From: Thermoproteota archaeon | GTDB lineage: Archaea > Thermoproteota > Thermoprotei_A > Sulfolobales > Ignisphaeraceae | Direction: 5' to 3' | Length of the DNA stretch: 48,925 nt | Assembly: GCA_013154235.1 (NCBI GenBank) | Contig: JAADCV010000082.1 | Location: 1 to 48,925, forward strand | Shown: piece by piece, positions 2,949 to 34,737 of the stretch | How the letters are laid out: each line of letters opens with the position of its first letter | Numbering within the stretch: the first letter of the stretch is position 1 | Notes under the pieces: model-generated | What the model was told of the DNA's origin: nothing | What the model saw: only the letters and a program-made list of their open reading frames with translations | Databases searched by the model: none | Translations under genes and position numbers: made by a program

Positions 2949-4016
2949 TTAATTACTCCGAAAGTAGTAGCGCTGACGATTTAGCTCTTGATTAATGAAT
3001 TCAAGACTTAGCTTAGCTAGGCCGTAGCCCCTACTAGTTGCTCCACCTATCAAGATATCGAGATTCTCTAAGTACTTCATCAATGCTTCGAAGAGTTTCT
3101 GAGCGCAATCCAAGGCCTTGCTATACTCGCTGCTAAGCACTGAATCACTATCTTCAGCTTCTGGAGGAGCCGGTGGTAATAACAAGTATGCTAGCCCTTC
3201 TAGAATCGTGCCAGGCTCCATACATTCAATGCTATACAGCTTACCTTCAGCCCTAATACCTCTACTGCGCTCTATGGCTACATGATATCTCCTAGCTAGT
3301 TCGACTCTAAGTCCTGCAGGAAGCAATGCTGTGAATCTTAACGCACTACCACGGAATGGACTTCCGAACAATATGCATATAGGGCATAATGTTGAGGCCC
3401 AGATCTCGAAGAGTTTATCAGCTCCAGCTTCGAGCCCCTGAAGCATGATCGCCAATCTCTCGCTAGGTTTCGCTTTTAGGCTCCTCAAGTATTCCTGAAA
3501 TGCTTTCTTCAAGCTCTCGTCTTTAGGTATCGCAATCCTTAGTCCCTTATCGACCCCTAGCGGAATCCTATCCATAACCCCATTGCGTTCGAGCTCTTCA
3601 AGAGTTTGTATTTCAAAGCCTAGTGTAGCTACATCTCTCATATCGCTGTGCACGGTGTTAATTACGAGTAAATTACTCCTACGCCTAGCGTCTTCCTCAA
3701 AGGGAGTGGGCTGGTGATGGAGTATCGCGAGCTTCTCCGGAATGCTACTACCTGTAAACAAACGCTTTGCGATTTTCTCAGCTATCGACCTTAGGACTCC
3801 CTTGATACTGGTTGGGGGTACTAAAGGCATTAACTTACAGTGCACACTAGCGATAGAGCCCTTACCTAGTTTCACTCGCTCTATAATCATGTCTTTGACG
3901 TGCTCAATGACGTTACCTACCCTTCCTCCCCCGATCAATGTGTAGGCCTTGAGCTCTAAGCGAACCCTAAGAGCGGTCATGAAGCTTGGAGCCCGTGATA
4001 AGCTCAAGGCTTTCAC
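2949..4016 (-). CDS. Type III CRISPR RAMP protein, Cas7-like
   Basis: PPTSIKGVLRSIAEKIAKR, CPICILFGSPFRGSALRF, GGATSRGYGLAKLSLEF Gly-rich loop; in III operon. Confidence 0.8.
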   Translation of the reverse strand: MKALSLSRAPSFMTALRVRLELKAYTLIGGGRVGNVIEHVKDMIIERVKLGKGSIASVHCKLMPLVPPTSIKGVLRSIAEKIAKRLFTGSSIPEKLAILHHQPTPFEEDARRRSNLLVINTVHSDMRDVATLGFEIQTLEELERNGVMDRIPLGVDKGLRIAIPKDESLKKAFQEYLRSLKAKPSERLAIMLQGLEAGADKLFEIWASTLCPICILFGSPFRGSALRFTALLPAGLRVELARRYHVAIERSRGIRAEGKLYSIECMEPGTILEGLAYLLLPPAPPEAEDSDSVLSSEYSKALDCAQKLFEALMKYLENLDILIGGATSRGYGLAKLSLEFINQELNRQRYYFRSN

Positions 4017-5107
4017 CTGAGATCCTTCGTGAGTTGCGGAAGAATTCTCCGGGTCTCCACTAGACTTGGGGGTAGGAGTTCACGTGAATGGATTCTCTCT
4101 GCTTGACCCCATGGAGGCTCTAAGCCTCTAGCCCTAGCCTTCTCTACACTTCCATGCACCCATACTACGACTCCAGGTCTTAACGCTATCACAGAGGCTC
4201 GAGGTTTATCTCTATGCTGAGACCAGCTAGCTAAGACCGTGAATCCCTTATCGCTAGGCGTGAACGCCATTACCTTATTCGATGCTGGTAAGGGTGACCA
4301 AAGCACGAACCACCGTGAATCGCCTTCCTTCAACTCGATTACATTAAAGACTATCCTAGCTCTTCCAAAACCCTTACTACATCCCTTCCCGATACAAATC
4401 TCTAAGGGGTTACGACATAACTTATTAGCTAGCTCATCCGGTATCTCAGCTATACCCCACCACATGTTTCCAGGCGATAGAGCTTCGTAACTGAATAGCA
4501 TGCCTTCTTCAGCACGCCTAGCTAGGGGATTTATCGCTACTGAAGTCCTAACCTCGATCCCTAACTCTGAAACCACATCGATTTCGTCCATAGCTAATAC
4601 GTCTAGATCGCTGAGTCGCGCAGTTCTCAGGGGTACGACGGGTACGGATATCACGGGCTTTACGAGTCCAGCGTAAGCAATACCCTCGCTTATTAGGTAC
4701 TCGTTTAACGCATCCAGGTACTGCTTGAATGCCTCTGCGTATTTATCGGGATCTAGATTCGTAAGACCCTTGACGAAGCACAGCACCGATCCCTCGATTC
4801 TTAGGTTCTTGAGCACCCTACGAACCTTAAGCTTTACGCAAAAGGCGGGTGCTGGCATACTTGGGTATAGGTGACCACCTTCTGCTACACGGATAGGATA
4901 GGCATCGCCTATGACGAATTCGCCTCTTGCAGCACGAATATGGAGTTCGCTAAGACTCAAGTTGAACTCCTTAGCTAGAACTCTCGCTAAAGCTCCGGCT
5001 ATGCTGGATCCGGGTATACGCTCCATTACAGGTCTAGGCCCGGTCTTCGTGTATGTTGACGCTACTAAGAGGGGAGATTCTACCTTGAGTACGTAAGCTA
5101 ATTCCAC
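4013..5107 (-). CDS. Type III CRISPR RAMP protein, Csx10/Cas5-like
   Basis: IPGSSIAGALARVLAKEF, GKGCSKGFGRARIVF Gly-rich loop; overlaps neighbour by 4 nt. Confidence 0.65.
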   Translation of the reverse strand: MELAYVLKVESPLLVASTYTKTGPRPVMERIPGSSIAGALARVLAKEFNLSLSELHIRAARGEFVIGDAYPIRVAEGGHLYPSMPAPAFCVKLKVRRVLKNLRIEGSVLCFVKGLTNLDPDKYAEAFKQYLDALNEYLISEGIAYAGLVKPVISVPVVPLRTARLSDLDVLAMDEIDVVSELGIEVRTSVAINPLARRAEEGMLFSYEALSPGNMWWGIAEIPDELANKLCRNPLEICIGKGCSKGFGRARIVFNVIELKEGDSRWFVLWSPLPASNKVMAFTPSDKGFTVLASWSQHRDKPRASVIALRPGVVVWVHGSVEKARARGLEPPWGQAERIHSRELLPPSLVETRRILPQLTKDLR

Positions 5108-5110
5108 TAG

Positions 5111-5881
5111 CTACCACCTCCATACGCGAGGTGCAGAAAGCTCTTTAAGCAAGTCGAGCTCAGGTTCGGGAGGAAGGTGTAGTTCGCGGTAAAGCTTCAC
5201 GGTTAGCTCAACCTCACTAACGCTTCCATAAGCTTGCGTTAAGGCTTTTCGAAGATCGTTCTCATCTTTAACCTCAAGTTTTTTCTTGCCAATGTCTCTA
5301 AACTCCAAGCTCTCGAGGTACGCTCTCACGATACCTCCTCTTCCCATGCCCACGTACTCGAGTATATACATTGACGATAAGACGAGCGTTAAGTCCACGG
5401 GTCTCTCCATCTCGAGCTCAAGCATGCCTCTAAATAGTGTGCCGGCCGGGACGTAGTCCATTACGTAGAGCGCTCCCTCCTTAGCCCTACCGGTGTAATC
5501 GTCTATCTCGATATGCGTTAGCCTAAGCATAGTTGTTGGGATCCCATCTACAAGCACGAAGTCTGTAACCGAAAGCATACCTCTATGTCCGGGGTAACCC
5601 CAGATCCTACATACATCACATGGCATTCCCATCTTGCTATGTCTATCAACTATCTCGGTAGGCTCTTTAGCCCAGCAACACGTAGCTCCCACAAGCTTAG
5701 CTACATAACATGCAGCAGTTCTAAGTACGCCCTTAACAGTTGATCCAGGAACATACGGCACATAGTTTCTATATGTACGTCTAACTACTATCGTTTCCTC
5801 ATAGCCGAACCGCCCTTCATCGCCACCTACATGAAGGGGGCTTAGGGCTAAGAGGTAGATCCCCATCCTAGCCGTAACCAT
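5111..5881 (-). CDS. Type III RAMP protein, Cas7/Csm3-like
   Basis: LSPLHVGGDE, YVPGSTVKGVLRTAACY, CDVCRIWGYPGHRGMLSVTDFVL, GMGRGGIVRAYLE. Confidence 0.8.
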   Translation of the reverse strand: MVTARMGIYLLALSPLHVGGDEGRFGYEETIVVRRTYRNYVPYVPGSTVKGVLRTAACYVAKLVGATCCWAKEPTEIVDRHSKMGMPCDVCRIWGYPGHRGMLSVTDFVLVDGIPTTMLRLTHIEIDDYTGRAKEGALYVMDYVPAGTLFRGMLELEMERPVDLTLVLSSMYILEYVGMGRGGIVRAYLESLEFRDIGKKKLEVKDENDLRKALTQAYGSVSEVELTVKLYRELHLPPEPELDLLKELSAPRVWRW

Positions 5882-5883
5882 AG

Positions 5884-8856
5884 CTATCCACCCATGAGCT
5901 TCGAGACCGTGTATAGTTCCAAAAGTAGCCTAGGTACGAGCTTGATGTCATTAGCTGATACCTCAATTACTAGCCTGTAGAGCGGATGCCTACCACCATC
6001 TTCCTCGGCTAAGATGAAGGGTAACGCGTATATCGATGGATATATCGTGAGTATTCTATTCAATTCCTTCATATTCTCTAACGCCTTCGTGCTAGAGAGA
6101 CTATTCCTAAGGATATTCGCGAGAAGTTTCTCGAGTTCCTCATCCCTACTAAGAGTCAATGGGAACTCCTGTGGAGATACCTCGAGGCTCATTAATGCTG
6201 CTGCAATGTGTAACAGACATTTCCACTGACGACTGAAAAGCGGTAGGGGCCCTAGCCTTTCTTCGCGTAATTTTCTAATGGCCTTTGTCCAAGTTAGAGC
6301 TCTTCTTGAATAATCGTAGCATAGAGATGCTACGCTCTCGAGTGGACGTACGCTTAGGAGTGAGGTTAGGACTAGCTCTCTAGCATTGGATTTCGCTTCC
6401 TCTAGCAACTTATCAGCTGCTTCATAGAGCCACCAGATCGGTTGATGCCTAGGACCAGCAGCTATACCTACGGATAGACTCGCTAGGAATCCTAGTTCGG
6501 CCGCAAAAGTGTAAGAGAGAAGCATTGCGAAGGGTAGTGCTAGCCCTGCCGGTAGTATTGCTGCAACGTCATCACCACCAGCATATAATAGACTTAGCGT
6601 TAATGTTGAGGCCGCTGCCACGGCTTCTCGTTCGTTTGCTCCGCGTCTAAGCATGGTGTTGAGAATTTCCAAGACTGTCTGTAGTCCACGCCGTAGAGCT
6701 AGATCTACGCGAACGCTCTTCTCGTAATAAGTCGAAGGTGTGATAGAGGCAGACATGAGTACCGACGTTAAGTTCCCATCGGCTTTGAGGAACGCTATGG
6801 AGTCTCGGTATGGTAGTGCTAAAAGCCTTAAGGGGTCCTTGAGGTAGGACCTAAGCCTATCTATAAGCTTGGGATCCACGCTTTCAAGCAAGTGCTCAAG
6901 CCTCCGAAGGCGGTGGTTGTAACCCATGAGTTCAGAAGCCTTATATCTGATGAAGCATGTTAAGCACACTGCATCACTACCTAGACGTAGCTGAGCGGGT
7001 CTCACGTAGCAATATGCGCATGGCTTCGTAAAGCGCTGTAAACCCGCATTCAATCTAAGACCGTTAACTTTCTTCACGCTAATGCGCTCAGCATCGATAG
7101 CGCTATAGGCTCGCGATATAGCGAACGCGTATCCGAATGGTGCATCTAGATCAATATCCGATAACCCGATCCTTATATGTACTCCCGGCAGTACAAGTCC
7201 AAGTAGACCCTCGAGGGCACGCCTTCTAACCCTATCCCCACACGACGAATCAGCATCCGGTCTCACGATAGCGTGAAGGGTACCCCCACCAGCAAAGACT
7301 ATGGATTCGATCGGTGCTCCAAGCACTTCATCTATCGTTAGCGGTATCGCGACATAGGTAAGGTAATCAATTGCTAGACTAATCCCTGCTAATACCCTAA
7401 GCTTTAGGGTTTCTCGAATCGACGTCTGAATACCACCGATATCGACTACTAGGAGCTTAACCCTAGCGGATCCATCACTACTTCGACTGTTAGTTCCTAG
7501 CATCTGTGGGCTAAGCTTGTATAATGCCTTGGCTAAAGCCCTAGATACCTGAGTGAGAAGGTCTTGACGTTGAGCCCATAAGTTTTTCCATAAGCTCCAT
7601 AGGACTTGTCTCTTACCGCGTTCTATTCTACCCCTATACGCTATATCTAAGGCTTGAGGCCCCTCCTTTATCGCTATCCCAATCTTCCTAAGTTCCTCTA
7701 TTATCGCTTGAGCGAGCTCCTTGATCGAGCTAGTTAATTCTAGTTCTTCGAGAATTCGACAAAGAGCTTTGTCTCTCTTACCCGTAGCGCAGTCGTAAGC
7801 ATGCATTACTAAGTCTACAAGCCTATCTACGCTAGCCGAATACCTATCGCCATTGATTACGGCATTACATACAATTCTAGCGTTTCCGTCTAACGCTGAG
7901 CTGAGAGCATCGATGCACTCAAGTTCATTATGATGAGTCTCAATGAGCTTGAATACGATCTCTAAATACCTAGTTATACCTTCTAGCTCTAAGCTAGCAA
8001 GAGGCTCTAGGATTCGCTTTGCATAATTGACGGACTCTTCTACGTGATGCTCATAATCAAATGGCTTACCAACATCATGTAAAAGTGCAGCGAGTCTAAC
8101 GATGGGTCTTAACTCATCATTGCTTCCCATGAAAGCTGAGGCTATCGCTGAAGATAGTAGTAAGTGTAGATTTAGGCTAGAAACGTTTAATCCCGGTCTT
8201 GTATCCGCCGGTATTGTATAGAGGATGTATTCAAGTAGTTGCTGAAGGCTCTTGGCTCCAATTCTTACGCCTGCAAGCTCGCTAATTATCGCGCCAAGCT
8301 CGCTTAGAGCCTTAGTTATTACTTCATCACTTGAACCACAAAGTCTCTCTGCATTGGGTTTAGCATGCATTATCCATTCGTATGCTTGGTGATATATCGT
8401 CAAGCGGTCTTTCTTCTCTACGAAATCCCTACATACTAACCTAAGTAATTTGTAGGCTATAACTCCAATATGAGGCGCGAGAATGTTGGTATGTCTAGCT
8501 CCATAACCATAGAGAGGCCACTTCAATGCATATGCTATAATGTCTGCTGTAGCATCTAGTACAGCGAGGATCTCACTTCTATCCTTACCCATCTTGTTAT
8601 TGCTGATGAGAACCCTCACAGCGCTAGCAAGGTGCTCTAGGAGCCCCCTAAGCCTCTCAAGGAATTCGTTCCAAAGCATCTTGGCATGTGCATCGCTTAG
8701 ACCTACAATCCAGCTCGACTGAATGCTAAAAGCATTACCATCAAGTACGAGAGTCCTTTCAGGCTGGCTAACGCTTAAGACTTCCCTAGATAGTTCAAGT
8801 AGTCTCTTTACTCGAACGGGAATAACATTAGCCTTCACGATCACCATGTTCATCAC
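5884..8856 (-). CDS. cas10: Cas10 large subunit with HD motif, zinc ribbon and GGDD cyclase motif
   Basis: LAALLHDVGKPFDYEHH (HD), CAYCYVRP...CLTCFIRY (two CxxC), LLYAGGDDVAAILPAGLAL (GGDD). Confidence 0.92.
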   Translation of the reverse strand: MMNMVIVKANVIPVRVKRLLELSREVLSVSQPERTLVLDGNAFSIQSSWIVGLSDAHAKMLWNEFLERLRGLLEHLASAVRVLISNNKMGKDRSEILAVLDATADIIAYALKWPLYGYGARHTNILAPHIGVIAYKLLRLVCRDFVEKKDRLTIYHQAYEWIMHAKPNAERLCGSSDEVITKALSELGAIISELAGVRIGAKSLQQLLEYILYTIPADTRPGLNVSSLNLHLLLSSAIASAFMGSNDELRPIVRLAALLHDVGKPFDYEHHVEESVNYAKRILEPLASLELEGITRYLEIVFKLIETHHNELECIDALSSALDGNARIVCNAVINGDRYSASVDRLVDLVMHAYDCATGKRDKALCRILEELELTSSIKELAQAIIEELRKIGIAIKEGPQALDIAYRGRIERGKRQVLWSLWKNLWAQRQDLLTQVSRALAKALYKLSPQMLGTNSRSSDGSARVKLLVVDIGGIQTSIRETLKLRVLAGISLAIDYLTYVAIPLTIDEVLGAPIESIVFAGGGTLHAIVRPDADSSCGDRVRRRALEGLLGLVLPGVHIRIGLSDIDLDAPFGYAFAISRAYSAIDAERISVKKVNGLRLNAGLQRFTKPCAYCYVRPAQLRLGSDAVCLTCFIRYKASELMGYNHRLRRLEHLLESVDPKLIDRLRSYLKDPLRLLALPYRDSIAFLKADGNLTSVLMSASITPSTYYEKSVRVDLALRRGLQTVLEILNTMLRRGANEREAVAAASTLTLSLLYAGGDDVAAILPAGLALPFAMLLSYTFAAELGFLASLSVGIAAGPRHQPIWWLYEAADKLLEEAKSNARELVLTSLLSVRPLESVASLCYDYSRRALTWTKAIRKLREERLGPLPLFSRQWKCLLHIAAALMSLEVSPQEFPLTLSRDEELEKLLANILRNSLSSTKALENMKELNRILTIYPSIYALPFILAEEDGGRHPLYRLVIEVSANDIKLVPRLLLELYTVSKLMGG

Positions 8857-9173
8857 CCCCTACAGACCCTATCAAGATCTTGGTAAAGCCTCGTAGTGTC
8901 ATCGAGGTACCCTAAAAGACTTGAAAGCATAGGGTCGCTAACTAGGAGCTTTAGCTTCTCTGCGTTGCTAAGTACCCTCTCGAGAAACTCTTCGTCACTC
9001 TTGCCTTCAAGCTTCCTTAGTATATCATCGAGCCCTTTAATCTCATCGATATCGTATTCCCGCTGTTCTTCGGGACTTGCTAACTCAATCTCAGTCTCAA
9101 TCTCAGTACCGTTGCATGTTACGTCTAGTAACTTATTTATCGCGAGGACTCGGTGCCCTATTTTCACCTGCAT
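8853..9173 (-). CDS. Small helical protein in type III operon, Cas11/Csm2-like
   Basis: Position between cas10 and RAMP gene, small, acidic/helical. Start at Met 9173 proposed (ORF track 9218) to avoid overlap with upstream gene. Confidence 0.5.
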   Translation of the reverse strand: MQVKIGHRVLAINKLLDVTCNGTEIETEIELASPEEQREYDIDEIKGLDDILRKLEGKSDEEFLERVLSNAEKLKLLVSDPMLSSLLGYLDDTTRLYQDLDRVCRG

Positions 9174-9180
9174 GACTCGG

Positions 9181-10197
9181 TCACACCCTACATGGCTCAA
9201 TAAGTCTCTTCCTTTCAACTTCGTCGAAGCACTTACGTAAACCTGGATAGGTCTCGAGAGCTTTTTCGACGAATTCCTTGATCACTTTACTTACGCTAGA
9301 TGCGCCAAGTAATTGGTTAAGAGTTTCCTTACACCATGGTGCAGGCTCAATGCTTTCAATCTCTACCTTAACCACTCCAAACTCGGCCTTAACACCACCC
9401 TTAGAGACAACAGTCCTGCAGCGATACTTAGAGGCTCCTAATAGCATTAGGGGTTCACGTTTACATAGAAGTTTGTCCTGCGATAAGCCGTAGAGCAGGA
9501 GTCCTAGCTCTGCACTCGATAGACCTAGAACCACTATTTCACCTTCAAATACAGAACCCTTGACTGCAGCCTCTAGCTTTTCGTTGTGATCAAGAACTAG
9601 ATTGTCGAGCTTAACCGACGTACCTAGGAGTGTTCCGAAGTATACTCGCGAACCTATGGCTTGAGCTCCTCTTCCAGCGTACCCGAGCAAGTTCTCGAGG
9701 ACACTATAGCCTTTAAACCTATCTATGCTTCGCACCTCAAATATGCTCTCACACCATATTCTAGCATGCCTCCATCCATGAAAACCCTTCGGCGGTAAGG
9801 AGTTCAGCACGGTATCGCCACCATACGAGAATGTAGCCACAGTTTGCGGACCATGACTAGCTAGCTCTATCCTACTTCGAACAGCGCCCTTTAATGTAGA
9901 ACCTGGTATTGCGGGCCTACCTTCAGCTCTGTAGAACTCCTTGAACTCTTCGACACCCTTAAGTAGTACTGGATTACGATATAGTTCTTCACCACCGTAT
10001 CTCTTAACGGCATCCTCTAGATACGTGTAGCGGATCCTTCCGGAGCCAACGAAGAGATAGTCCGATACCACGGTAATCTTAACGCGTAGCTTAGCACTGA
10101 TCCTATCGGGCTCGGCAACAGCCTTAACCCTATCAATCGGGGATTCAACTAGGACCTCGCTCTTTGTAAGAGTGGGTATGCAGATCTCTCGCTCCAT
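9181..10197 (-). CDS. Type III RAMP protein, Csm5/Cas7-like
   Basis: VTVVSDYLFVGSGRIRY, AIPGSTLKGAVRSRIELA motif. Confidence 0.75.
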   Translation of the reverse strand: MEREICIPTLTKSEVLVESPIDRVKAVAEPDRISAKLRVKITVVSDYLFVGSGRIRYTYLEDAVKRYGGEELYRNPVLLKGVEEFKEFYRAEGRPAIPGSTLKGAVRSRIELASHGPQTVATFSYGGDTVLNSLPPKGFHGWRHARIWCESIFEVRSIDRFKGYSVLENLLGYAGRGAQAIGSRVYFGTLLGTSVKLDNLVLDHNEKLEAAVKGSVFEGEIVVLGLSSAELGLLLYGLSQDKLLCKREPLMLLGASKYRCRTVVSKGGVKAEFGVVKVEIESIEPAPWCKETLNQLLGASSVSKVIKEFVEKALETYPGLRKCFDEVERKRLIEPCRV

Positions 10198-10199
10198 AG

Positions 10200-11189
10200 C
10201 TAACCACCAAATGTTAAGATGCTCACGATTTTCTGGGTAGCCTTGAGGCGCGACTCGTAGATCTCCTTCAGCTTACTACAGTACTTTTCATGCCAAGCGT
10301 TAGCCAAGGTCTCTAAAGCTTTGAAACCCTTAGTACCCTCACATATCAGTGTATCCCCTTGCACTACGCACATGTCCAATGAATGACTCTCATCCATATC
10401 TTTATCAAGGGGCTCGAGAGTATTGCCATTAACAGGGTTTATCGCAATCTTTACGCTTTCCTCAGCGATCTTAACTCTACCCATACCCCTGCTCTTGAAA
10501 CCTCCGAGCTTTAGAAATCCATTATGAATAAGGAGTATGCTCGCTGAGAGCAATGCTAGCATCCAGTTAGTCACGTTTTTAGCCATTATCGTTCCGTGAA
10601 ACCTTGAGCCTGACTCTATGTACTCAACGTTGTACAAATATCCGTGAGCAGCGGTTCCCACTCTCCTATTAATAGCTACACCTGTCTTGATCCCCGTAGC
10701 AATATTACCTCGAGGTGCGAAATCTCCTACAATTACGTGAGAGGCGTAGCTCTTAGTGCCGTAGAGTAGGCATGTAGGGCAGAACCCAAGGATTACCCTT
10801 TTGAGATCGATAATCCTAACACTCTTCCTAATGTTGTCGAAGGTACTTGATGAGCCGCATAGAGCTGTTACGCAATCATCATCTCCAACACCGCTATGCA
10901 CGTTGCTCATTCCGCAAGTTGCAACAAGAAGCATGGATGCAGTCCTTAATACACCCTTGAAGCTCGATCCTGGGATTACGGGAGCTCGAATAATGCCATT
11001 ATCAGTAACGACGTTGTATCTAAGCACGGGAAGATCTACTGGTGAGTAGGGGTCCGTAGTTTTTCCAACTCCTATCCTTAGCGGTTCTAGAATCTCAATA
11101 TCGAATTCTATCTCTACTGATCTACAGATCACTCTATGTCCAAGCCACTCGAGATCTTCTACACATATATTGTGTAAGAGGTTCACCAT
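10200..11189 (-). CDS. Type III RAMP protein, Cas7/Csm3-like with candidate catalytic Asp
   Basis: LRIGVGKTTDPYSPVDLPVLRY...VIPGSSFKGVLRTAS; CPTCLLYGTKSYAS; GGFKSRGMGRVKI. Confidence 0.82.
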   Translation of the reverse strand: MVNLLHNICVEDLEWLGHRVICRSVEIEFDIEILEPLRIGVGKTTDPYSPVDLPVLRYNVVTDNGIIRAPVIPGSSFKGVLRTASMLLVATCGMSNVHSGVGDDDCVTALCGSSSTFDNIRKSVRIIDLKRVILGFCPTCLLYGTKSYASHVIVGDFAPRGNIATGIKTGVAINRRVGTAAHGYLYNVEYIESGSRFHGTIMAKNVTNWMLALLSASILLIHNGFLKLGGFKSRGMGRVKIAEESVKIAINPVNGNTLEPLDKDMDESHSLDMCVVQGDTLICEGTKGFKALETLANAWHEKYCSKLKEIYESRLKATQKIVSILTFGG

Positions 11190-11193
11190 GTGT

Positions 11194-12120
11194 TCACCTC
11201 CTTAGCAACTGGTTAAGGGGCTTGGGCCCCTCAACTACAAGACCTTTGTCTGGTGTAACCCTCACGATTTTGTAAGTGGGTTCGACAAGCTTTACGAGCC
11301 CTAGACCAACACTTCTTCTACCCCCAATCTGAATACCTTCTATGAGAATTTCAAGCATTGACTTTATCAACTCGATCCTAATATCACTACTACCACTCTC
11401 TAGATCCACGTTAACGATCTTCATCTTGAATAGCCACTCAGCTCCAGGTTCAACAGCTTCGAGCGAGTATAGAAGCCCTGGCTTCTGAGTGCCCGTAAAC
11501 CTGTCTATCGCTACCCTTTGCAATACTATCGTTCGAACCTCTGACGTAGGATAGGCATCGAGTATCGTTACGTGGCTAGCTAACCATGGACCACCAAAAA
11601 GCCCTACCACTGGTGAGCATAGACACTTACAGATTAAATCGCTGAGTGTTGCCTCGTCAAGATTCAAAAGGGCGCGCCTAACTTCATCCCTACTAAGTGC
11701 ACTATATGCATCAGATAGACTCTCCCCAGTACACCCGATTTCTATTTCTTGAGATCCTACAATCCTAATCCTTACGTAGGGTTTCATGACTCCTCGTGCA
11801 ATAGCTAAACGTTCAATAAAACCTCTAAGTACACCCCTGAGCGAAGAGCCAGGAATGTAAGGGGTCAAACCTCGTATTTTAACGATAGGCTTATCTATAG
11901 GTGAGTAAGGGTCTTCAGCACTTGTACCAATGTGTGTTGGTGAGAACGTTATGAGTTTACCCTCGATGATATATTCAACCCTATACTCATCGAAATCTGC
12001 ATATCCTAGCTTTCTAAGAGCGGCATGCAGAGCCCTATCGAGCACATTACGAGTAGCTAATTGCTCGTGAAGCGTGTCCTTAAAGGCTCTTATAACCTCA
12101 TCGATACGCACGCTAGACAC
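11194..12120 (-). CDS. Type III RAMP protein, Cas7/Csm3-like with candidate catalytic Asp
   Basis: THIGTSAEDPYSPIDKPIVKIRGLTPYIPGSSLRGVLRGFIE; GGRRSVGLGLVKL. Confidence 0.82.
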   Translation of the reverse strand: MSSVRIDEVIRAFKDTLHEQLATRNVLDRALHAALRKLGYADFDEYRVEYIIEGKLITFSPTHIGTSAEDPYSPIDKPIVKIRGLTPYIPGSSLRGVLRGFIERLAIARGVMKPYVRIRIVGSQEIEIGCTGESLSDAYSALSRDEVRRALLNLDEATLSDLICKCLCSPVVGLFGGPWLASHVTILDAYPTSEVRTIVLQRVAIDRFTGTQKPGLLYSLEAVEPGAEWLFKMKIVNVDLESGSSDIRIELIKSMLEILIEGIQIGGRRSVGLGLVKLVEPTYKIVRVTPDKGLVVEGPKPLNQLLRR

Positions 12121-12130
12121 CTAGACCACC

Positions 12131-12565
12131 TCAAACCCCTAGAACTCGCGAGATCACAGCCTCAACACTAGCGAACTGATTTAGAAGATCGCTGAACATA
12201 GTTCTATCTACGTTGATGCCTCTACAGACGTAACCACGACCACGGCTAATGGCTTGATATACCCACCTAGCCATACCCAATACTTTCAGCAATTCATCTC
12301 TAGATAGCTTTGCGCCCTTCATATTGCTTAACCCCTTTAAGCACTCGATGAACCTACGAGCAACACCATCCCTTACATATCCCCTACCTACTTGGTAAGC
12401 GATGAAAGCTAGCAACATATCGTACGCAACCTCGGGATAAGCACTCACAATCTCAATCAGTTTCTGCACTTGAGACCTCTCGATGTTACCGCATCCCAGT
12501 ACGAATCCTAATACAGCTCCGTAATGATGCAAAATTTCATCATTAAGTACAGCGTGAGAAGCCAA
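12131..12565 (-). CDS. Small helical subunit of type III complex, Cas11 (Csm2/Cmr5)-like
   Basis: 144 aa helical protein (LLKVLGMARWVYQAISRGRG...), first gene of the type III operon. Confidence 0.55.
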   Translation of the reverse strand: MASHAVLNDEILHHYGAVLGFVLGCGNIERSQVQKLIEIVSAYPEVAYDMLLAFIAYQVGRGYVRDGVARRFIECLKGLSNMKGAKLSRDELLKVLGMARWVYQAISRGRGYVCRGINVDRTMFSDLLNQFASVEAVISRVLGV

Positions 12566-12690
12566 GGTACTGCCCCATTATACGAGCGTTGGGAGAAATT
12601 AAAAGGCTTTGGATTAAATGAGTATAAGAAAGGAGCAGGTGCATTAGGAACTAAAGCAATTCTTATTTACGTGTATCGTGAAGGTGAATC

Positions 12691-13407
12691 GTGATGTCAC
12701 GCAATACAGTAGTTGTAATTGTAGATCCTCAAATAATAGAGTGGTTAAGGCGAGCACTCGGAGAGTTTATTTATTACAAAAGTAGGAGGCTTAGCGAGAA
12801 TCATAGCAAAAGCTATAAGTTCTTGAAGGAATTGGCAGATGTAATAAAATTCATTAAGAAAGTATTCGGTGACGTTATATATAAGACCCCGTATTATGGT
12901 GTTATGCGAATACTAGATAGGGATACGAGACTGCAAGACTTCGAGTATATTGCGAAACGAAGGAACCTCGATAAATTCTTTAAGCTCATTCATATCTTAG
13001 GCATAGGACCTTTAGAATATTTATTAACGTCATTAATTAGAAGCGATCCAGTAGTAAATTCGTCAATATTAAAAGTATGTTTAGGAAGTTGTAAAGAGGT
13101 GTTTCGTGGCGTTCAGAATTCTGTGAATTGTTTAGTATGTATTGAGGATTACTTCAAGTCATGGCACAAGGATACTATTGAAGCCTTTAAATATTTAGCT
13201 TGTATTGCACACTGCAACGAGTACATTAAGAAGGTTAGTAAAGGAACTAAACTATGCATGCTTTTAGTGGATTGCTGTGGCTTTAGATGTGCTGAAAACC
13301 TTTGTCATAATAATAATTTCACTATAGAGATATCCTCTGGTGCTTGTGACGTCATGGATTGCGAAGGTGAGGCGTTATTTATTCTGTGTTGCAAGTTCTT
13401 AAAATAG
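12691..13407 (+). CDS. Uncharacterised cysteine-rich protein
   Basis: 238 aa ORF with C-terminal Cys/His cluster (CLGSC..CLVC..CIAHC..CCGFRC..CHNNN..CDVMDC..CC); divergent from type III operon; overlaps next ORF. Confidence 0.65.
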   Translation: MMSRNTVVVIVDPQIIEWLRRALGEFIYYKSRRLSENHSKSYKFLKELADVIKFIKKVFGDVIYKTPYYGVMRILDRDTRLQDFEYIAKRRNLDKFFKLIHILGIGPLEYLLTSLIRSDPVVNSSILKVCLGSCKEVFRGVQNSVNCLVCIEDYFKSWHKDTIEAFKYLACIAHCNEYIKKVSKGTKLCMLLVDCCGFRCAENLCHNNNFTIEISSGACDVMDCEGEALFILCCKFLK

Positions 13408-14462
13408 GTTTTAGGAGTTTAAAAGTTAAAGGCACTGGGTTTAGGTGTAAAGTCATGGTATTGTGCAACATTAAGGGATCTCTTCCTGGTACTACTAAAT
13501 CCCTCATTTTTGAGGGTGCAATAGATGTATGTATAGATGGCACTACAGTGATACTTGGCCCCAATTCAACTTTGAAGAGCATTACTGCTTGTTGCTTAGC
13601 TATTAACTCGGTTAGAGGAGATTATGGCAGTCCTTTGAGGTATCGATGCATCTTAGAGACTAGTTGCGAAGAAAGAATCTTTGACGATTTTTTGTGGATA
13701 GGGCCAGAGAGAGTCATAGCACCGTATCTAGGAGTTCTTCAGAAAGCAGCTGATACGCTGAGAGAAAACAACCTTCCAGGATATGAGGAATTAGAGTACC
13801 TATACCCGTGGGTAAGGCTCTTGCAAGAGAGCGCTAGTGTAGGTTATGGTCTTGAATATGTTGTGCGTATTTCTGAGGATTGTAAGCGAAGAGTTGAGGA
13901 GTTACTTGAGGTTTCGTGGGATTTCGATATTATGCCTCTAGACCTAGTTGTCGTAAAAGACCGTGTAGAATTTGTCGATAAGCGTACACATGCCAGGCTA
14001 AATCCGTTCCTCATAAGTACGGGCATTGCTGCAACGATAGTATATAGAGTCCTTCTAGTAGCAACAATTAATGCATTCGTTAATCGTGATCGTAGATTGC
14101 TAGTAGTTGTTGAAGAGCCCGAAGAGCAAGCTCATCCCTATGCACAATTTGCACTTGGATATTTGCTTGGCTATATACCTTACCGCTTAGCAAGGGATGG
14201 TGCGAAGCTATCTACGCTAGTCACTACACATAGCGAGTACGTATTGACGGGGATATTTGTTGGAGCTAAGGATGGTGGAGCTACGATAAACAATAGACCT
14301 AGAGTGTACGTTATGAAACCTAGTGTAGAAGGACAAGGCATTAAGATATATGCTAAAGCATGGGAACCTGGAGAAAGTATACCAGGATTCTTCGATGAAT
14401 CACTTAAAATGCTTAGCGAGAGATTCGAAGCATATGAATCCCTTTGGGCAGGAACAGAATAG
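13386..14462 (+). CDS. ABC/OLD-type ATPase with degenerate Walker A
   Basis: VILGPNSTLKSITACCLAI (cf. GPNGSGKST), ISTGIAATIVYRVL signature-like, LLVVVEEPEEQAHPYAQFALGYLL (Walker B), LVTTHSEYVLTG (H-loop). Confidence 0.75.
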   Translation: MLQVLKIGFRSLKVKGTGFRCKVMVLCNIKGSLPGTTKSLIFEGAIDVCIDGTTVILGPNSTLKSITACCLAINSVRGDYGSPLRYRCILETSCEERIFDDFLWIGPERVIAPYLGVLQKAADTLRENNLPGYEELEYLYPWVRLLQESASVGYGLEYVVRISEDCKRRVEELLEVSWDFDIMPLDLVVVKDRVEFVDKRTHARLNPFLISTGIAATIVYRVLLVATINAFVNRDRRLLVVVEEPEEQAHPYAQFALGYLLGYIPYRLARDGAKLSTLVTTHSEYVLTGIFVGAKDGGATINNRPRVYVMKPSVEGQGIKIYAKAWEPGESIPGFFDESLKMLSERFEAYESLWAGTE

Positions 14463-14664
14463 ACCATCGAGTATCTTCGCTAGATACGCTTAGCTAAGCT
14501 TTCTGTTCAATAGTGGTGTTAACTGTATCACTAAGCTCATTCACTTCGGCTCTTCATGATACCGTTTTTGAATATTCTTTGCACCGTCTTATCCTAGCAA
14601 TAGTGGTTACATTAACTGAGAAAGGAATTTATTCTTAGGAGTATGCATGTCATGCGTATATCCT

Positions 14665-14756
14665 TTTCAATTCAATTTAGAATTTTCGTACACATTGGGT
14701 TACTCAAAAGGAAGGCTCGAGGTATTTTAAACATTCAATTCCATTTTATTGGATTC
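14665..14756 (-). CRISPR. Vestigial CRISPR: two degenerate repeats, one 45-nt spacer-like segment
   Basis: TTTCAATTCAATTTAGAATTTTC (14665-14687) and CATTCAATTCCATTTTATTGGATTC (from 14732), reverse complements close to GAATCCCATAAATGGAATTGAAA found at 25 kb; period 68. Confidence 0.55.
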
Positions 14757-14917
14757 TGTTTCATGGTCATTTGCTCTAACGTAACTTCTATCGCTCCTAA
14801 TACAAAGGTTAATTTGATACATAGAATTCATACGCTAGTTAAATACTACAAAAATTAACTTTGAAAATAAACTTTTATGCCAAGAACAATGAGAGCTTCC
14901 TCGGAGTGAAACATTAA

Positions 14918-15007
14918 AATACAAAGAATGGAATTGAAAGCTAACAACTAACAGCTTCAGTGCTTTGGGGATGAAAGTAATGAGAAATTCGGAAATTGAA
15001 TTGAAGG
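14918..15007 (+). CRISPR. Vestigial CRISPR in opposite orientation: two degenerate repeats, one 44-nt spacer-like segment
   Basis: AAATACAAAGAATGGAATTGAAA (14918-14940, 18/23 to the 25-kb repeat) and GAAATTCGGAAATTGAATTGAAG (14985-15007, 16/23); period 67. Confidence 0.5.
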
Positions 15008-15267
15008 TTTATAGCTTCCCCTAAGCATATTTGTAATCACGGAATTCTAAGAGTGAATAATGAATATCGAGAGTGTTACCTTAATTGGGTATCTCAATGC
15101 TTAGCTGTAATCTTAGTCCAAGATTAACAGAATTGAGCGTTAATGGGGGTTATATGCGTAACAACTTTAATATGGTTTCGATGAAGAGTATAGAAAGGAG
15201 TAATTGAAGGTTTTGTGAGAATTAAAACCAAAATAAGTTGAGTATGAAGCTAGATATCTTGATGGCT

Positions 15268-17277
15268 TTACGTCAAGTTACGCAATTCCTTTAGCTTCTC
15301 GCGAGGAAATGGTGCAGCTATACAGAATGCACTAGCCTTACACTCCTTTTCACCACTATCTTTCTGTACATTCTTAAATGCTATAGCAACAAATCTGTGT
15401 ACAGCAGTTAACCCAGCGTGCGCTAGTATATTGCGTAGCTCGATCTGTACCTTCATTGGTGTTAAATAGTAATAACCATAATTGTCACTCTTAGTCCTAA
15501 GGATCTGCGAGCATTCATGTTTCCTAAATTTCTCAACTTCTATTTCTATACTAAATACTGGTGGAGCGAAGTACAATACCCTCCCAGTGGCGTTATTTAG
15601 CCATTCTCCTACTTCATTACTCAGAATAACTTTTGCTATGTTCTCGATTACTTCTCGTAAGAAGTCTAGGGTTACTTTACTAATGGCTAATCTCTCGAGA
15701 TCTTGATTGCCATAACCTTTGGGATCGGATCCCGACTTAGTAATTGCATTTACAATTTTCATGAGCTTCTCAAAGTCGTAACACTTAACACGATCATACT
15801 CTATAACCTCATCCCAACAGCTCGATCCATTCGCACTTATAGCTTTGGATACTTCTTCGATGAGATCCCTAGCTAGTGATGTTAGCCAAGCACCAATCTC
15901 TATTTTATCAGCAACTTCGGCTCTCTCTCTATTGCCTATAACACTTAAGTTAATGTGTATTGTGTTATTATCTTTACTCCTAATCGATATACTTAACCAC
16001 TTGGGAGAAATTATATAGTCTCCCTTATACGTATCAAATACGTATAAACCCCATACTACAAGACCGCGACTAATTAGGTACAATGCCTCTAAGTATCGTC
16101 CGAGGCTCTCTAGATCCTTGCTTTCGATGATTCTTCCTTCGAATATCAAATCTTCAATTCTTTTAATCACTTCTCCTATGCTTCCAATCCTTTTGTAGTC
16201 CTCAAGCGTAAAGTAGTAACTAACGTTACTCTCCACGGTGATGTTAAGCGATTCCCAGTTTTGCTTCCTGAGCCCTAGGACTGGATCGCTATTGTATAGA
16301 TACACCTTAATTATCTTCTTGAGGTCTTTACCGTGAGCACTATCCCGATTCGCGAGGGCCTTGTAGAGCTCGAATTTGATTAATGGCAATGTATCTCTAA
16401 GGGCTTGCATAAGCATGGTGGTAGCTATATTTAGCCCGTGGGTGGTATCTATCAGCACTTCGGCTCTATCGACATCACACTTCCTAAAGATATTGCTATG
16501 CACGAACCTTGTTGAGAAGCTAATAGCTCTAATGTAAGCCGCCTTTAGAACATTGTTAAAGACCCTAACATCGGCAACATGCTTCTCTCTAAACAACCCA
16601 ACTATGTTCTTAGCGCCTACTCTCTTGCTATATCTACCCGTTTGCGGAACTAGTGATAGTCCCATATATCCTGAATACTCATGCTCCTTAGAAGAGCAGA
16701 TATCGTGTACAATTAGCTTAATTTTCTTTGCAATTACTCCCGTCTCCTCTCTTCTACCTTCATTCTCATTCTCTACGACTATGCGTTGAGCTACGAGTTC
16801 CGGCTCACTAAGTGAAACCTCGCCGCTGAGTTCCATGGTTACAGCGTGGACCTTTCTGTTGATTTCCTTGCATAGGAGATCGACCTTCTCGCGATTTTCC
16901 TTAATGTACTTCTGTACATCTTCGTAATTACTACGGATGTTATTAACTAATTCCTCACTAACCTTATTTAAGAAAATACGAGGATTAGCGAGAATGTTTT
17001 GAAAATCCTCAAGCGAGTTTGCTATTGCTATTGTTAAGGTCATAGGCGTTACGAACCCCAAGAAGAACTCTGCAACATTTAAACCTGAACTGGTTAGGTA
17101 CACTAGGCGTGCTGCTAAAGGTGCTAAAGGACCTAGATTCGTAGCGACTACTATGGGTACTCGGCTACCATCTTCCTTCTCAACATAGACCCTATAGAAT
17201 ACCGGGCTATACTTAGCGAAATCTCCAAGTGTTGATAAGGACATGACTGCAACCTTATCCAAGGTTACCCCGTACAC
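15268..17277 (-). CDS. Csx1-family CARF-HEPN protein (putative cyclic-oligoadenylate-activated RNase)
   Basis: VLIDTTHGLNIATTMLMQAL (Csx1-type TTHGxN motif) and C-terminal RNILAHAG (HEPN RX4-6H). Confidence 0.85.
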   Translation of the reverse strand: MYGVTLDKVAVMSLSTLGDFAKYSPVFYRVYVEKEDGSRVPIVVATNLGPLAPLAARLVYLTSSGLNVAEFFLGFVTPMTLTIAIANSLEDFQNILANPRIFLNKVSEELVNNIRSNYEDVQKYIKENREKVDLLCKEINRKVHAVTMELSGEVSLSEPELVAQRIVVENENEGRREETGVIAKKIKLIVHDICSSKEHEYSGYMGLSLVPQTGRYSKRVGAKNIVGLFREKHVADVRVFNNVLKAAYIRAISFSTRFVHSNIFRKCDVDRAEVLIDTTHGLNIATTMLMQALRDTLPLIKFELYKALANRDSAHGKDLKKIIKVYLYNSDPVLGLRKQNWESLNITVESNVSYYFTLEDYKRIGSIGEVIKRIEDLIFEGRIIESKDLESLGRYLEALYLISRGLVVWGLYVFDTYKGDYIISPKWLSISIRSKDNNTIHINLSVIGNRERAEVADKIEIGAWLTSLARDLIEEVSKAISANGSSCWDEVIEYDRVKCYDFEKLMKIVNAITKSGSDPKGYGNQDLERLAISKVTLDFLREVIENIAKVILSNEVGEWLNNATGRVLYFAPPVFSIEIEVEKFRKHECSQILRTKSDNYGYYYLTPMKVQIELRNILAHAGLTAVHRFVAIAFKNVQKDSGEKECKASAFCIAAPFPREKLKELRNLT

Positions 17278-24962: not shown

Positions 24963-25130
24963 TCTTAATTCCATTCTTTTGATCTCCGATTAGTCCCTAC
25001 ATGTATTCACGATACATACTGACAATAACATTTCAATTCCATTTATGGGATTCCTGAATATCGTAGCGCACATTACCCACCCTCAGCACCAAGTAGCTGT
25101 TATAATATTTCAATTCCATTTATGGGATTC
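24963..25130 (-). CRISPR. Mini CRISPR array: three repeats (one degenerate), two spacers of 45 and ~48-54 nt
   Basis: TTTCAATTCCATTTATGGGATTC exactly at 25031-25053 and 25108-25130 (extends 6 nt upstream with one mismatch), degenerate TCTTAATTCCATTCTTTTGATCT at 24963-24985; next to I-A cas genes. Confidence 0.7.
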
Positions 25131-27017: not shown

Positions 27018-28124
27018 TCATGTCACTACTTTGTGTAGGGCGTTCTTCTCTATGGCTATTCTGATTTCTCGTGCTATTCTTCTTCCGACCGACATTGGCT
27101 CGTTCCAGTAGAGGTGCGTGTAGGGGCTTCCCGCTACGTATAGGTTTGTTCCTGCTACTATTCTTCCGGAGAACTCGAATACTACGATCTCTAGGTTTGG
27201 TGTTGCTATTGCTTCTAGGCAGTATGGGCCTATGATTCCCGGGGGTAGCTTTCGTTTCGTTGCTTCAGCGAATCTCCTGCCGTAGTCTAGGGCTTTAACC
27301 AGCATGCTCTCTCTGAGAACCACCGGTATGTTTCCTACGACTACGAAGCTTGGCTCGATCCCTATCTCCTCGAGTATGCGTGGGGGTAGTCTTCGTAGTC
27401 CATCGACGTTCGTCTCGTACCTTATGTCTGCCCCGGTTATCTCGACTCTATCTAGGGTCGGGCTGTAGAAGTAGTGGATGTATATCGGGACCCCAACGAT
27501 GTACTTCTGGATGAGGGCCTCCCTAGGATCCTTGATCAGCCCCCTCTCGACGAGCTCTCTAAGCCTCTGCCTAACTTCTCGAGAGCTCATGGCTATGAAG
27601 TACCCCTTCCCACCCTTAGCGCCAGGGAGCTTAACTATGACTAGGTCCTCGAAGTCCTCGTCGATGCTGTAGCTAGGTGGCGTTGGTATACCAGCGTCTC
27701 TAAGGAGCTCCATCTTCTCTCGCTGGCTAGCCTCTACGCGGAAGAGTGTGCGGAGGCCGAAGATGGGGAGCTCTATGTTTTCGGCGCACTCGTGCCCAAC
27801 GTACTCCACGAGGCTCCCGTGGGGGACGAGGATCGCGTTGCTCTCCCTAAGCCTCTTCACCACGTCCTGCCTGCAGAGGTCCCTCCACCTATCCACCACC
27901 ACTATCTCGTCGATTATGTGGCTGAACTCGCGGTATAGGGGGAGCCTCTCCCTAGTGGATACGAGTAGGGTGCGGAGGCCCTCAGCCTTAGCCCCGTGCA
28001 TTATCTGGAGGGCGCTGTGGCTAGCTAGGGTGGCTATGGAGAGCCTATCTAGGTCGTAGCTAGACGCAACATCCCTCCCTATCATGGCTAGCCCCGCTGC
28101 GCACAGCTGTTTAAACTGGGGCAA
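27018..28124 (-). CDS. purP: PurP, formate-dependent FAICAR synthetase (copy 1)
   Basis: [27 protein letters not shown]..., [18 protein letters not shown]-grasp, [12 protein letters not shown]; divergent from purC. ATG at 28082 is an alternative start. Confidence 0.9.
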
Positions 28125-32098: not shown

Positions 32099-33484
32099 TT
32101 GTGCGGGATAGCAGCTGCCTACCCCGTTGACAGCAGGGGGGTTGTGGAGTCCCTAGCATCCATACTACTAGAGCTCCAGCATAGGGGGCAGGAGGCTGCC
32201 GGGATAGCTGTGGTAACTAGGGATGGAAGGCTCAAGCTCCTAAGGGGCCCAGGAACCATCTTCGAGGCGATGCCCATCGAGAGGCTCCGCGAGCTAGCTT
32301 CTGAGGAGCCTGTGTGCGGCATCGGACACGTGAGGTACTCGACGAGCGGTGGATACATGGAGTACGGCGCTCAGCCCATCGTCGCTGGGAAGAGGCCTAG
32401 GATAGCCCTAGCGTTCAACGGAAACATAGTTAACTACGCCGAGATAGCGAGGATAGCTGGCCTAACCCACGTCCCTAGCGATGCCTACGCCCTAGCTGGG
32501 CTCGTGAGCTACCTAGCTACTGAGCACGGTGGGGACGTTATAGAGGCGCTGAGGGAGCTACCTAGCTACGTTGTCGGTAGCTACAGCCTAGCCATACTAA
32601 CTGACGAGCCTAGGATCGTGGTCGCTAGGGACCCCATAGGCTTCAGACCCCTATCGATATCGCTAGGCCCCGGGCTCTACGCAGCCTCCGAGAACCCAGC
32701 TCTCGAGGCTATAGGGCTAGAGCGGTGGAGAGAGGTCGAGCCCGGGGAGATAGTCTCCTTCGACGGCTCTTCGCTAGAGGTTACTAGGGCTAGGGGCGGC
32801 TCGGGAAGGGTAGCTCCCTGCATCTTCGAGTACGTCTACTTCTCGAGGCCGGACTCCGTGTTCAACGGCGTCGAGGTGTACAGCGCTAGGCTGAGGATGG
32901 GTATGGAGCTAGGCCGCAACGCTCCCGCCGAGGCAGACATAGTTATCCCGGTTCCAGACAGCGGTAGACCAGCAGCCATAGGCTTCAGCAGGGTTACTGG
33001 GATACCCATCGGGGAGGGCTTCGCTATAAACAAGTACCTTGGAAGGGGCTTCATATCGCCCCCATCGATTAGGGGAGCTGTAACGAGGCTGAAGTACGGC
33101 GTTATAAGGAGCGAGGTGAGGGGGAGGAGGGTTGTTCTCGTCGACGACTCGATAGTTAGGGGAACTACGATAAGGGCTCTCGCCTCTAGGATCTACCGAG
33201 CTGGAGCTAGGGAGGTTCACGTTAGGGTTGCCTCACCTCCCTTCCGCTACCCGTGCTTCATGGGTATAGACGTTCCGGTTAGGAGGGAGCTAGCTGCGTG
33301 GAGGAAGAGCCTAGGGGAGCTAGCGAAGGATCTCGGAGTGGATAGCGTTGCCTACAACACGCTCGAGAGCGTGGTTAAGGCAGTTGGGCTCCCGAGCGTG
33401 TGCCACGCCTGCTTTTCTGGGCTCTACCCCCTTCCCGGGATAGACCTTGAGGAGGTTGAGAGGGTTCTCGGGGTGAGGAGATGA
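32099..33484 (+). CDS. purF: Amidophosphoribosyltransferase
   Basis: MCGIAAAYPV (N-terminal Cys), GHVRYSTSGG, FNGNIVNY, VVLVDDSIVRGTT PRPP motif. Confidence 0.95.
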   Translation: MCGIAAAYPVDSRGVVESLASILLELQHRGQEAAGIAVVTRDGRLKLLRGPGTIFEAMPIERLRELASEEPVCGIGHVRYSTSGGYMEYGAQPIVAGKRPRIALAFNGNIVNYAEIARIAGLTHVPSDAYALAGLVSYLATEHGGDVIEALRELPSYVVGSYSLAILTDEPRIVVARDPIGFRPLSISLGPGLYAASENPALEAIGLERWREVEPGEIVSFDGSSLEVTRARGGSGRVAPCIFEYVYFSRPDSVFNGVEVYSARLRMGMELGRNAPAEADIVIPVPDSGRPAAIGFSRVTGIPIGEGFAINKYLGRGFISPPSIRGAVTRLKYGVIRSEVRGRRVVLVDDSIVRGTTIRALASRIYRAGAREVHVRVASPPFRYPCFMGIDVPVRRELAAWRKSLGELAKDLGVDSVAYNTLESVVKAVGLPSVCHACFSGLYPLPGIDLEEVERVLGVRR

Positions 33485-34737
33485 GCGGTCTCCTAGCTAT
33501 AGCCTCGTTCAGCGAGGACGCTCCGGTTGGTAGGAGGGCTCTCTACGCGCTGAGGGCTCTCGAGCATAGGGGAGGGTCTAGAGCTGTAGCGTGCTTCGCT
33601 ACCGAGAAGGGGATCGAGTGCTCGTCCGGCGAGAGCGTGAGGGCATTGAGCGTGAGCCCCGGGGCTAGAGCTGTAGTGGCGGCTGTCTACAGCTCTCCGA
33701 GCGACTGCAGCGTCACTAGGATAGAGGCTGGTGGCGAGGAGGCTATAGCCCTCTGCTCAAGACCCTGCCCTGGCGCTAGGAGGGCTATCGAGGAGGCTGT
33801 TAGCGAGGCGCTTAGGGGGAGGAACCCGGTTATAGACACCGAGATACCGTCCTTCGTCGCCCTAACCAGCAGCGGGAGCATAGTTGCTGTTAGGGATAGC
33901 GCTGGCCTAACCCCCCTATCCGTAGGTGGGCTAGGGTTCGACGCTGCCGTGATAGCCTCGGAGACCCCAGCTATCGAGGTCAGCGGAGCTAGCCCAAGGG
34001 ACTGGCTGAGGCCTGGCGAAGGAGTTGTGGTCTCTAGGCATCTAGCTAAGAGGGTGGAGGTTAGGGGTGCTGCTAGGCGGGGCCACGCTCTATGCAGCTT
34101 CGAGCTCCTCTACATCGCTAGGCACGACGCTATCGTCGACGGTGTCCCGGTCTACAGCTTCAGGAAGATGCTTGGGTACGAGCTGGGTAGGGTCGCTAAG
34201 CTAAGCAGCATAGATGTGGTTACCGGTATTCCGGAGACAGCCATACCCTACGCGATAGGCCTATCGCAGGCTATAGGAAAGCCCTTCGAGATAGGGTTCG
34301 TTCCAACAGGTGGTGAGAGGATCCGGGCAGCGCTGCAGGGTGATCCGCTAGCTAGGCTTGTAGCGATACACATGAAGATGAATCCCGTTGCAAAGGCTCT
34401 GGAGGGCAAGAGCGTTGCGCTCGTCGACGACAGCATGGTTACCGGGGCTACGGCGAAGACCGTTTCGCAGATCCTTAGGTACCGCGTCGGCGTTAGGGAG
34501 CTCCACCTATTCATAGCTAGCCCGCCGCTCGTGAGCGACTGCCCCCACGGCGTGCTCAGCTACGATAGGGGGAGCCTCCTAGCGGCGAACATGAGCGCTA
34601 GGGACGCTGCTAGGTACCTAGAGGTGGATAGCCTCCACTGGGTCGATAGATCGTCGCTAGAGCTAGCCGCTAGAGTCTTTGGCGTGCCCCTCTGCGCGAA
34701 GTGCTTCGGCATCGGTGTAGTGGGTGGGTCTAGATGA
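33481..34737 (+). CDS. PurF paralog lacking the catalytic Cys (glutaminase-dead)
   Basis: MSGLLAIASFSEDAP (Ser where PurF has Cys), no HVRYSTSG or FNGNI motifs, PRTase VALVDDSMVTGATAKT retained. Confidence 0.88.
   Translation: MSGLLAIASFSEDAPVGRRALYALRALEHRGGSRAVACFATEKGIECSSGESVRALSVSPGARAVVAAVYSSPSDCSVTRIEAGGEEAIALCSRPCPGARRAIEEAVSEALRGRNPVIDTEIPSFVALTSSGSIVAVRDSAGLTPLSVGGLGFDAAVIASETPAIEVSGASPRDWLRPGEGVVVSRHLAKRVEVRGAARRGHALCSFELLYIARHDAIVDGVPVYSFRKMLGYELGRVAKLSSIDVVTGIPETAIPYAIGLSQAIGKPFEIGFVPTGGERIRAALQGDPLARLVAIHMKMNPVAKALEGKSVALVDDSMVTGATAKTVSQILRYRVGVRELHLFIASPPLVSDCPHGVLSYDRGSLLAANMSARDAARYLEVDSLHWVDRSSLELAARVFGVPLCAKCFGIGVVGGSR

Follow-up and report, generated by a model that had tools for sequence, protein, structure and literature searches.

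The OLD, PtuA, AriA and GajA systems all place an effector domain or subunit under the control of an ATPase. Most known effectors of type III CRISPR systems sense second messengers via CARF or related domains, and Shah et al. reportedly described 39 type III accessory families in 2019. The OLD family comprises classes 1 to 5, the archaeal Cran1 included; this ATPase-nickase of Sulfolobales has links to the cell cycle and to a gene for a membrane protein (PMC12796447). Type III ancillary effectors include Csx1/Csm6, Card1, Can1 and others (PMC12669027), and in the passages of the 2025 classification that were covered, STAND ATPases are the only ones named for type III variants. Here we analyzed a pair of adjacent genes, one for a small Cys-rich protein (ORF1) and one for an ATPase, which lies next to a type III operon. 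We consider it moderately probable that the pair is a type III ancillary, PARIS/Septu-like defense module, with the partner under the control of a nucleotide-sensing ATPase. Both kinds, the type III ancillary module and the ATPase-partner defense module, are known; within the literature covered, their combination looks new or at least uncharacterized. That literature contained no description of the module; an earlier listing of the ATPase among the families of Shah et al. is possible.

One of the closest known systems is the OLD family, with which the pair shares an ABC-type ATPase, an EEPE Walker B region and a THS H-loop. When the ATPase family profile was compared with the PDB, OLD (6p74) was the best match (2e-5), and PtuA was found as well. 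Unlike OLD proteins, the module ATPases are only 300 to 393 aa long and have no C-terminal TOPRIM nuclease; their partner is a separate protein, the pair being encoded next to type III CRISPR genes, and their Walker A motif is altered in two lineages. PARIS (AriA plus AriB, OLD class 4) likewise encodes its ATPase and small partner as separate genes, and AriA profiles were among the top PADLOC matches of several relatives (e.g., L068, 7.7e-13; L055, 5.8e-12). However, neither ORF1 nor the other partners tested matched AriB or any other PADLOC profile, and the similarity of the window ATPase to AriA is partial. PARIS is not known to be linked to type III loci.

Septu (PtuA plus the HNH nuclease PtuB) also joins an ATPase to a Cys/His-containing partner, and PtuA was matched both by profile and in the PDB. 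In Septu, however, the partner is an HNH protein, whereas the module partners lack an HNH or PtuB match (Pfam, PADLOC and other profile scans in the case of ORF1), and the module ATPases are shorter than the PtuA chains in the PDB (550 aa). Gabija (the TOPRIM protein GajA plus the helicase GajB) differs from the pair: the module has no TOPRIM domain, and no recognized helicase gene lies by the pair in the window or in the related locus L047. Given these absences and the conserved place by type III genes, the suggestion in the preliminary description of an independent Gabija-like module is not supported. Like type III ancillary effectors, the pair lies beside type III operons, is patchily distributed and often occurs with Csx1, but it differs from them in having no recognized CARF domain or other second-messenger sensor and in consisting of a P-loop ATPase and a separate partner.

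The window, i.e., the whole stretch of 48,925 nucleotides that was analyzed, carries the pair between a type III-D-like operon and a Csx1-like gene (Table 1), beyond which lies a gene set resembling type I-A. The GC content of the block that holds the pair was 0.35 to 0.43, compared with approximately 0.45 in the type III-D operon and 0.53 past 18.5 kb. This bears out the earlier claim of an AT-richer block; the AT richness of the pair is not constant at other loci. No RNA element was found between positions 11000 and 18500, and scans for sigma-70 promoters and for terminators, with models not meant for archaea, stayed at chance level.

Table 1. Features of the window around the ORF1-ATPase pair
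Feature	Position	Strand	Remarks
Type III-D-like operon	2949..12565	-	Csm2, several RAMPs, Cas10 with GGDD and HD, Csx10-like
csm2-like small subunit, first operon gene	12131..12565	-	PADLOC Csm2, 8.6e-9
Divergent intergenic region, csm2-like/ORF1	12566..12690		125 bp; possible BRE/TATA GAGAAATTAAAAGG on the + strand (sequence only)
ORF1, partner gene	12691..13407	+	238 aa; GTG start, ATG at 12694 also possible
Longest ATPase ORF	13386..14462	+	358 aa, GTG start
ATPase, ABC/OLD-type, without TOPRIM	13455..14462	+	335 aa from the likely ATG
Walker A, GPNSTLKS	13557..13580	+	Leu replaces the usual P-loop Gly; K and S kept
Walker B region, EEPE	14112..14123	+	E243-E246 invariant in 9 aligned relatives
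H-loop, TTHS	14223..14234	+	T281, H282 and S283 invariant in 9 aligned relatives
Csx1-like CARF-HEPN protein	15268..17277	-	669 aa; PADLOC Csx1/Csm6, 7e-15; Pfam Csx1_CARF, 4.4e-5

If translation of the ATPase started at the GTG of the longest ORF, 57 residues would precede Walker A. In most relatives this spacing is about 30 to 45 residues, and the in-frame ATG at 13455 has an AGGTG just upstream. For these two reasons the ATG is preferred and is probably the start, which leaves a 47-nt gap after ORF1. Thus, the two ORFs occupy the intervals first reported for them, but the 22-nt overlap between the genes hangs on the GTG at 13386 and is doubtful. The Walker B region and the H-loop, both as originally described, identify an OLD-family ABC-type ATPase core; most relatives have a canonical Walker A, whereas in the window Leu replaces Gly. 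Only about 75 residues follow the H-loop of the window protein, which contains no TOPRIM domain. Its own matches were weak: AAA_15 and AAA_21 in Pfam and, partially, NsnB in PADLOC, a name for which the literature search returned nothing relevant. Individual relatives matched AriA, GajA and PtuA in PADLOC. Neither window protein matched CARF or SAVED in Pfam or PADLOC, and a diverged ligand site is possible. The predicted structures of the ATPase (pLDDT 39) and of ORF1 (pLDDT 33) were too poor for a fold search.

For ORF1, the coordinates, strand, length, Cys density and absence of a family match given in the preliminary description were all reproduced. Its 15 cysteines make up 6.3% of the residues, the highest share among the 39 ORFs of 110 aa or more in the window (median, 1.4%). 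An N-terminal strand ends in VDP, and a Cys/His cluster occupies the C-terminal part. ORF1 had zero matches in Pfam, PADLOC, NCBIfam and PHROGs, and no TOPRIM match was obtained for it or for 10 partners from 10 other loci (Pfam at E ≤ 1). The only recognizable homologue is the partner at the equivalent position in L047: the score of the local alignment had a z of 3.8 (2 of 600 shuffles), and the identity was 27% after anchoring on VDP. Given this positional, weakly similar counterpart, we rejected a chance ORF or a wrong frame, a reading that is also countered by the partners at other loci, which are separated from the ATPase gene by no more than a few dozen nucleotides. The concern that the 238-aa ORF might be absent from all relatives was therefore settled for the nearest one, L047; elsewhere, the counterparts are positional only.

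We then considered the genomic context of the relatives. The sole full-length ATPase relative found in the window's order came from a Pyrodictium delaneyi MAG (G123), contig DQVR01000092.1 (L047; also L003). There, a 250-aa protein with 18 cysteines is followed by the ATPase, as in the window, and genes for Cas10 (GGDD), a RAMP, a Csx10-like protein and another RAMP lie upstream on the same strand; the Cas10, Csx10-like and RAMP genes of the window operon have homologues at this locus. Type III neighbors also surround the relatives at L048, L055, L058, L065 and L068, and wider profile searches added L096, L097, L102, L155 to L165 and L167. In total, ATPases of the short clade (300 to 393 aa, no TOPRIM) adjoin csm or cas10 at 22 of 24 Thermoproteota loci. 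The two exceptions are L166, where csm genes are absent within about 9 kb, and L056, a 150-aa fragment near type I-A genes. Counted by ORF, type III genes were present within 3 kb of 24/26 short-clade ATPases as opposed to 0/21 long OLD-like ones (Fisher p=2e-11, a value that overstates independence because several loci, e.g., L156 to L158, are closely related).

The loci cover eight families (f1, f4, f7, f9, f11, f25, f34 and f38), and near-complete genomes of family f11 carry the module (L156 and L157). The ATPase also co-occurs with csm3 across genomes. In the order of G237, it was found in 10/13 genomes with the matching csm3 type compared with 1/32 without it (p=9e-7); in the window's order, the respective numbers were 8/20 and 4/188 (p=7e-7). 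The association of the ATPase-partner pair with type III genes is thus well supported. At the level of linkage, these data strongly favor one of the options raised initially, a type III ancillary; a random genomic context, named initially as a refuting observation, was not seen.

The arrangement of the genes is similarly regular. Most intact ATPase copies adjoin a small protein, often Cys-rich, and the ATPase-partner spacing ranged from -47 to +47 nt across the measured loci. At 11 of the 14 loci measured, the ATPase is divergent from csm2, with a gap of 7 to 189 bp in ten of them. The window differs in that ORF1 sits between the csm2-like gene and the ATPase: the partner is downstream of the ATPase at most loci and upstream in the window and L047. 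Such proximity to csm2 suggests that the module is expressed together with the type III complex or acts jointly with it.

The Gly-to-Leu change in Walker A is not confined to the window. The xLKS form occurs in six ATPases (the window, L055, L058, L065, L096 and L155), all of which retain Walker B (EEPE) and the H-loop as well as the K and S of Walker A. In the trees, the window ATPase was sister to that of L047 (99/97; 99/98 after masking of the Walker A columns), and with these columns masked the ATPases of L055, L058, L065, L096 and L155 formed a branch apart from it, the exact placements being unsure because the branches are long. A single clade of all xLKS ATPases was rejected (AU test, p=3.8e-5); therefore, xLKS has two or more origins, or else a single origin followed by several losses. 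Decay of the motif through a broken gene or a sequencing error was dismissed, since five further ATPases have xLKS and a deep clade has preserved it. Hence, the Walker A termed degenerate at first is indeed atypical, but it is conserved and recurrent rather than degenerating. Retention of K, S, Walker B and the H-loop speaks for nucleotide handling that would be kept in an altered form. The recurrence raises a biochemical question: does such a P-loop bind, hydrolyze or merely sense nucleotides?

T-group partners (L097, L157, L160, L161 and L163 to L165, with pieces in L102, L156, L159 and L167) have 12 to 16 cysteines and, around an HE motif, C, H and C at invariant positions; S-group partners (L055, L058, L065, L096 and L155) have 3 to 6 cysteines. 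In most partners, the first element is a hydrophobic strand whose last residue is D (or N). Profile comparisons and shuffles gave no significant similarity between the T group, the S group, the window with L047, L048 and L068; in the shuffle tests, only window-L047 was above chance and L047-L164 was marginal. A single universal partner family is thus not supported. No nuclease or other catalytic domain was recognized in any partner. The L065 partner had a subthreshold match to an NYN RNase (E=0.0012), and the only match of the L047 partner was to LHH in Pfam (E=0.076). It is possible that the partner is a PIN/NYN-like nuclease.

By analogy with the OLD, PtuA, AriA and GajA ATPases, which control effectors, we infer that the module ATPase gates the small partner. 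The ATPase would dimerize like other ABC, OLD and PtuA ATPases and serve as a switch, gated by nucleotides, by which the partner is held or activated. This smaller protein would be the effector, most likely a nuclease; its first strand ends in a conserved acidic residue, and T-group members have a putative Cys/His site as well. Such a module would be co-expressed with the type III complex, be triggered alongside it and supplement the CARF effector Csx1 with an arm that causes damage or dormancy. In copies with the Leu-type Walker A, we expect the working step to be nucleotide binding or sensing, not fast ATP turnover. A bolder version, which we regard as unlikely in its entirety, is a CARF-independent branch of type III immunity: the P-loop ATPase, with its repeated Gly-to-Leu exchange, would be a nucleotide sensor without the usual kind of ATP turnover, and Cas10 activation, by way of ATP consumption, cyclic oligoadenylate or complex binding, would release or activate a Cys-rich effector of a new fold.

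Could the pair instead be an independent PARIS/Septu-like abortive-infection module, one that merely shares the defense neighborhood of type III CRISPR, answers to a viral cue of its own and has no interaction with the type III complex? We find this possible, though on the improbable side. The kinship of the ATPase to AriA, GajA and PtuA and the two-gene modular layout fit such a module, as do the copy without csm genes (L166) and the lack of a recognized CARF domain. The ATPase is also interrupted or split at L160, L167, L158 and L102. Two of these, L160 and L167, are in near-complete genomes where csm and cas10 are intact and the ATPase is broken; type III loci therefore do not need it, and loss of the module while cas10 stays is what independence would allow. 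However, the csm-side position is conserved over many lineages, and none of the longer related ATPases shares it. An independent module would also be expected by other systems or on mobile elements, whereas viral contigs, plasmids and phages contained no relatives. The same searches led us to reject a mobile or viral origin. We favor the type III ancillary reading. A module without a recognized sensor that recurs at the csm2 side across Thermoproteota, with broken copies by intact cas10, points to an additional arm of type III immunity or to a safeguard of it.

In a guard or addiction module, the partner would be a putative toxin that the ATPase, or else the intact complex, keeps in check and that is freed upon inhibition or loss of the type III system. 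The divergent, tightly spaced genes beside csm2, the frequently broken ATPase or partner and the richness of the loci in other defense genes agree with this scheme, which we nevertheless judge very unlikely, as many type III loci have no module (12 of the 20 genomes of the window's order that have this csm3 type). Least probable is a non-effector helper of the type III complex (e.g., in assembly, crRNA handling or spacer acquisition) with a metal-binding adaptor as the partner: close linkage to the small-subunit gene csm2 and retention at L096 favor it, but patchy presence and the broken copies at L160 and L167 oppose an essential role, and the ATPase's relatives in known systems gate effectors. 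The type III-A Cas10 of L096 (2700-5528) has AGDD for GGDD and LLYEAG for the HD motif LLHDIGK, leaving no recognizable HD motif, while csm genes and the module are kept. Under the preferred type III ancillary reading, this persistence means that second-messenger signaling may not be needed.

Several other features were observed at these loci. The xLKS ATPases outside the window are accompanied by a third small protein at L055 (8011-8526), L058 (1994-2464), L096 (10446-10898) and L155 (1-309), with a possible relative at L048 (2156-2677) whereas none was found in L047 or in the window. Neither the L055 nor the L058 copy had a PADLOC or NCBIfam match. Also at L048, adjacent 416- and 477-aa proteins by the type III genes (5040-7739) had zero PADLOC matches and are possibly diverged CARF-type proteins.

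In the window, the 805-bp gap between the ATPase and Csx1-like genes contains degenerate CRISPR-repeat-like sequences on both strands (14661-15010), which are possible remains of an array. The copy at 14732-14757 reads CATTCAATTCCATTTTATTGGATTC, and its flank CTGYTTCATGGT is common to the copy at 25108. Two CRISPR repeats, TTTCAATTCCATTTATGGGATTC, 77 bp apart, form an isolated one-spacer mini-array at 25025-25130; a near-identical repeat, TTTCAATTCCATTAATGGGATTC, is found in arrays on contigs C18, C89 and C106 of the window's genome. Judging from translations, the purine cluster includes a tandem PurF-like pair (32099-34737), the second member of which starts with MSGLLAIAS and is without the Cys2 of the first (MCGIAAAY), so that its glutaminase site may be dead. 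Similar-looking PurP-like genes, also recognized from their translations, lie on either side of this cluster (27018-28124 and 38851-39981).
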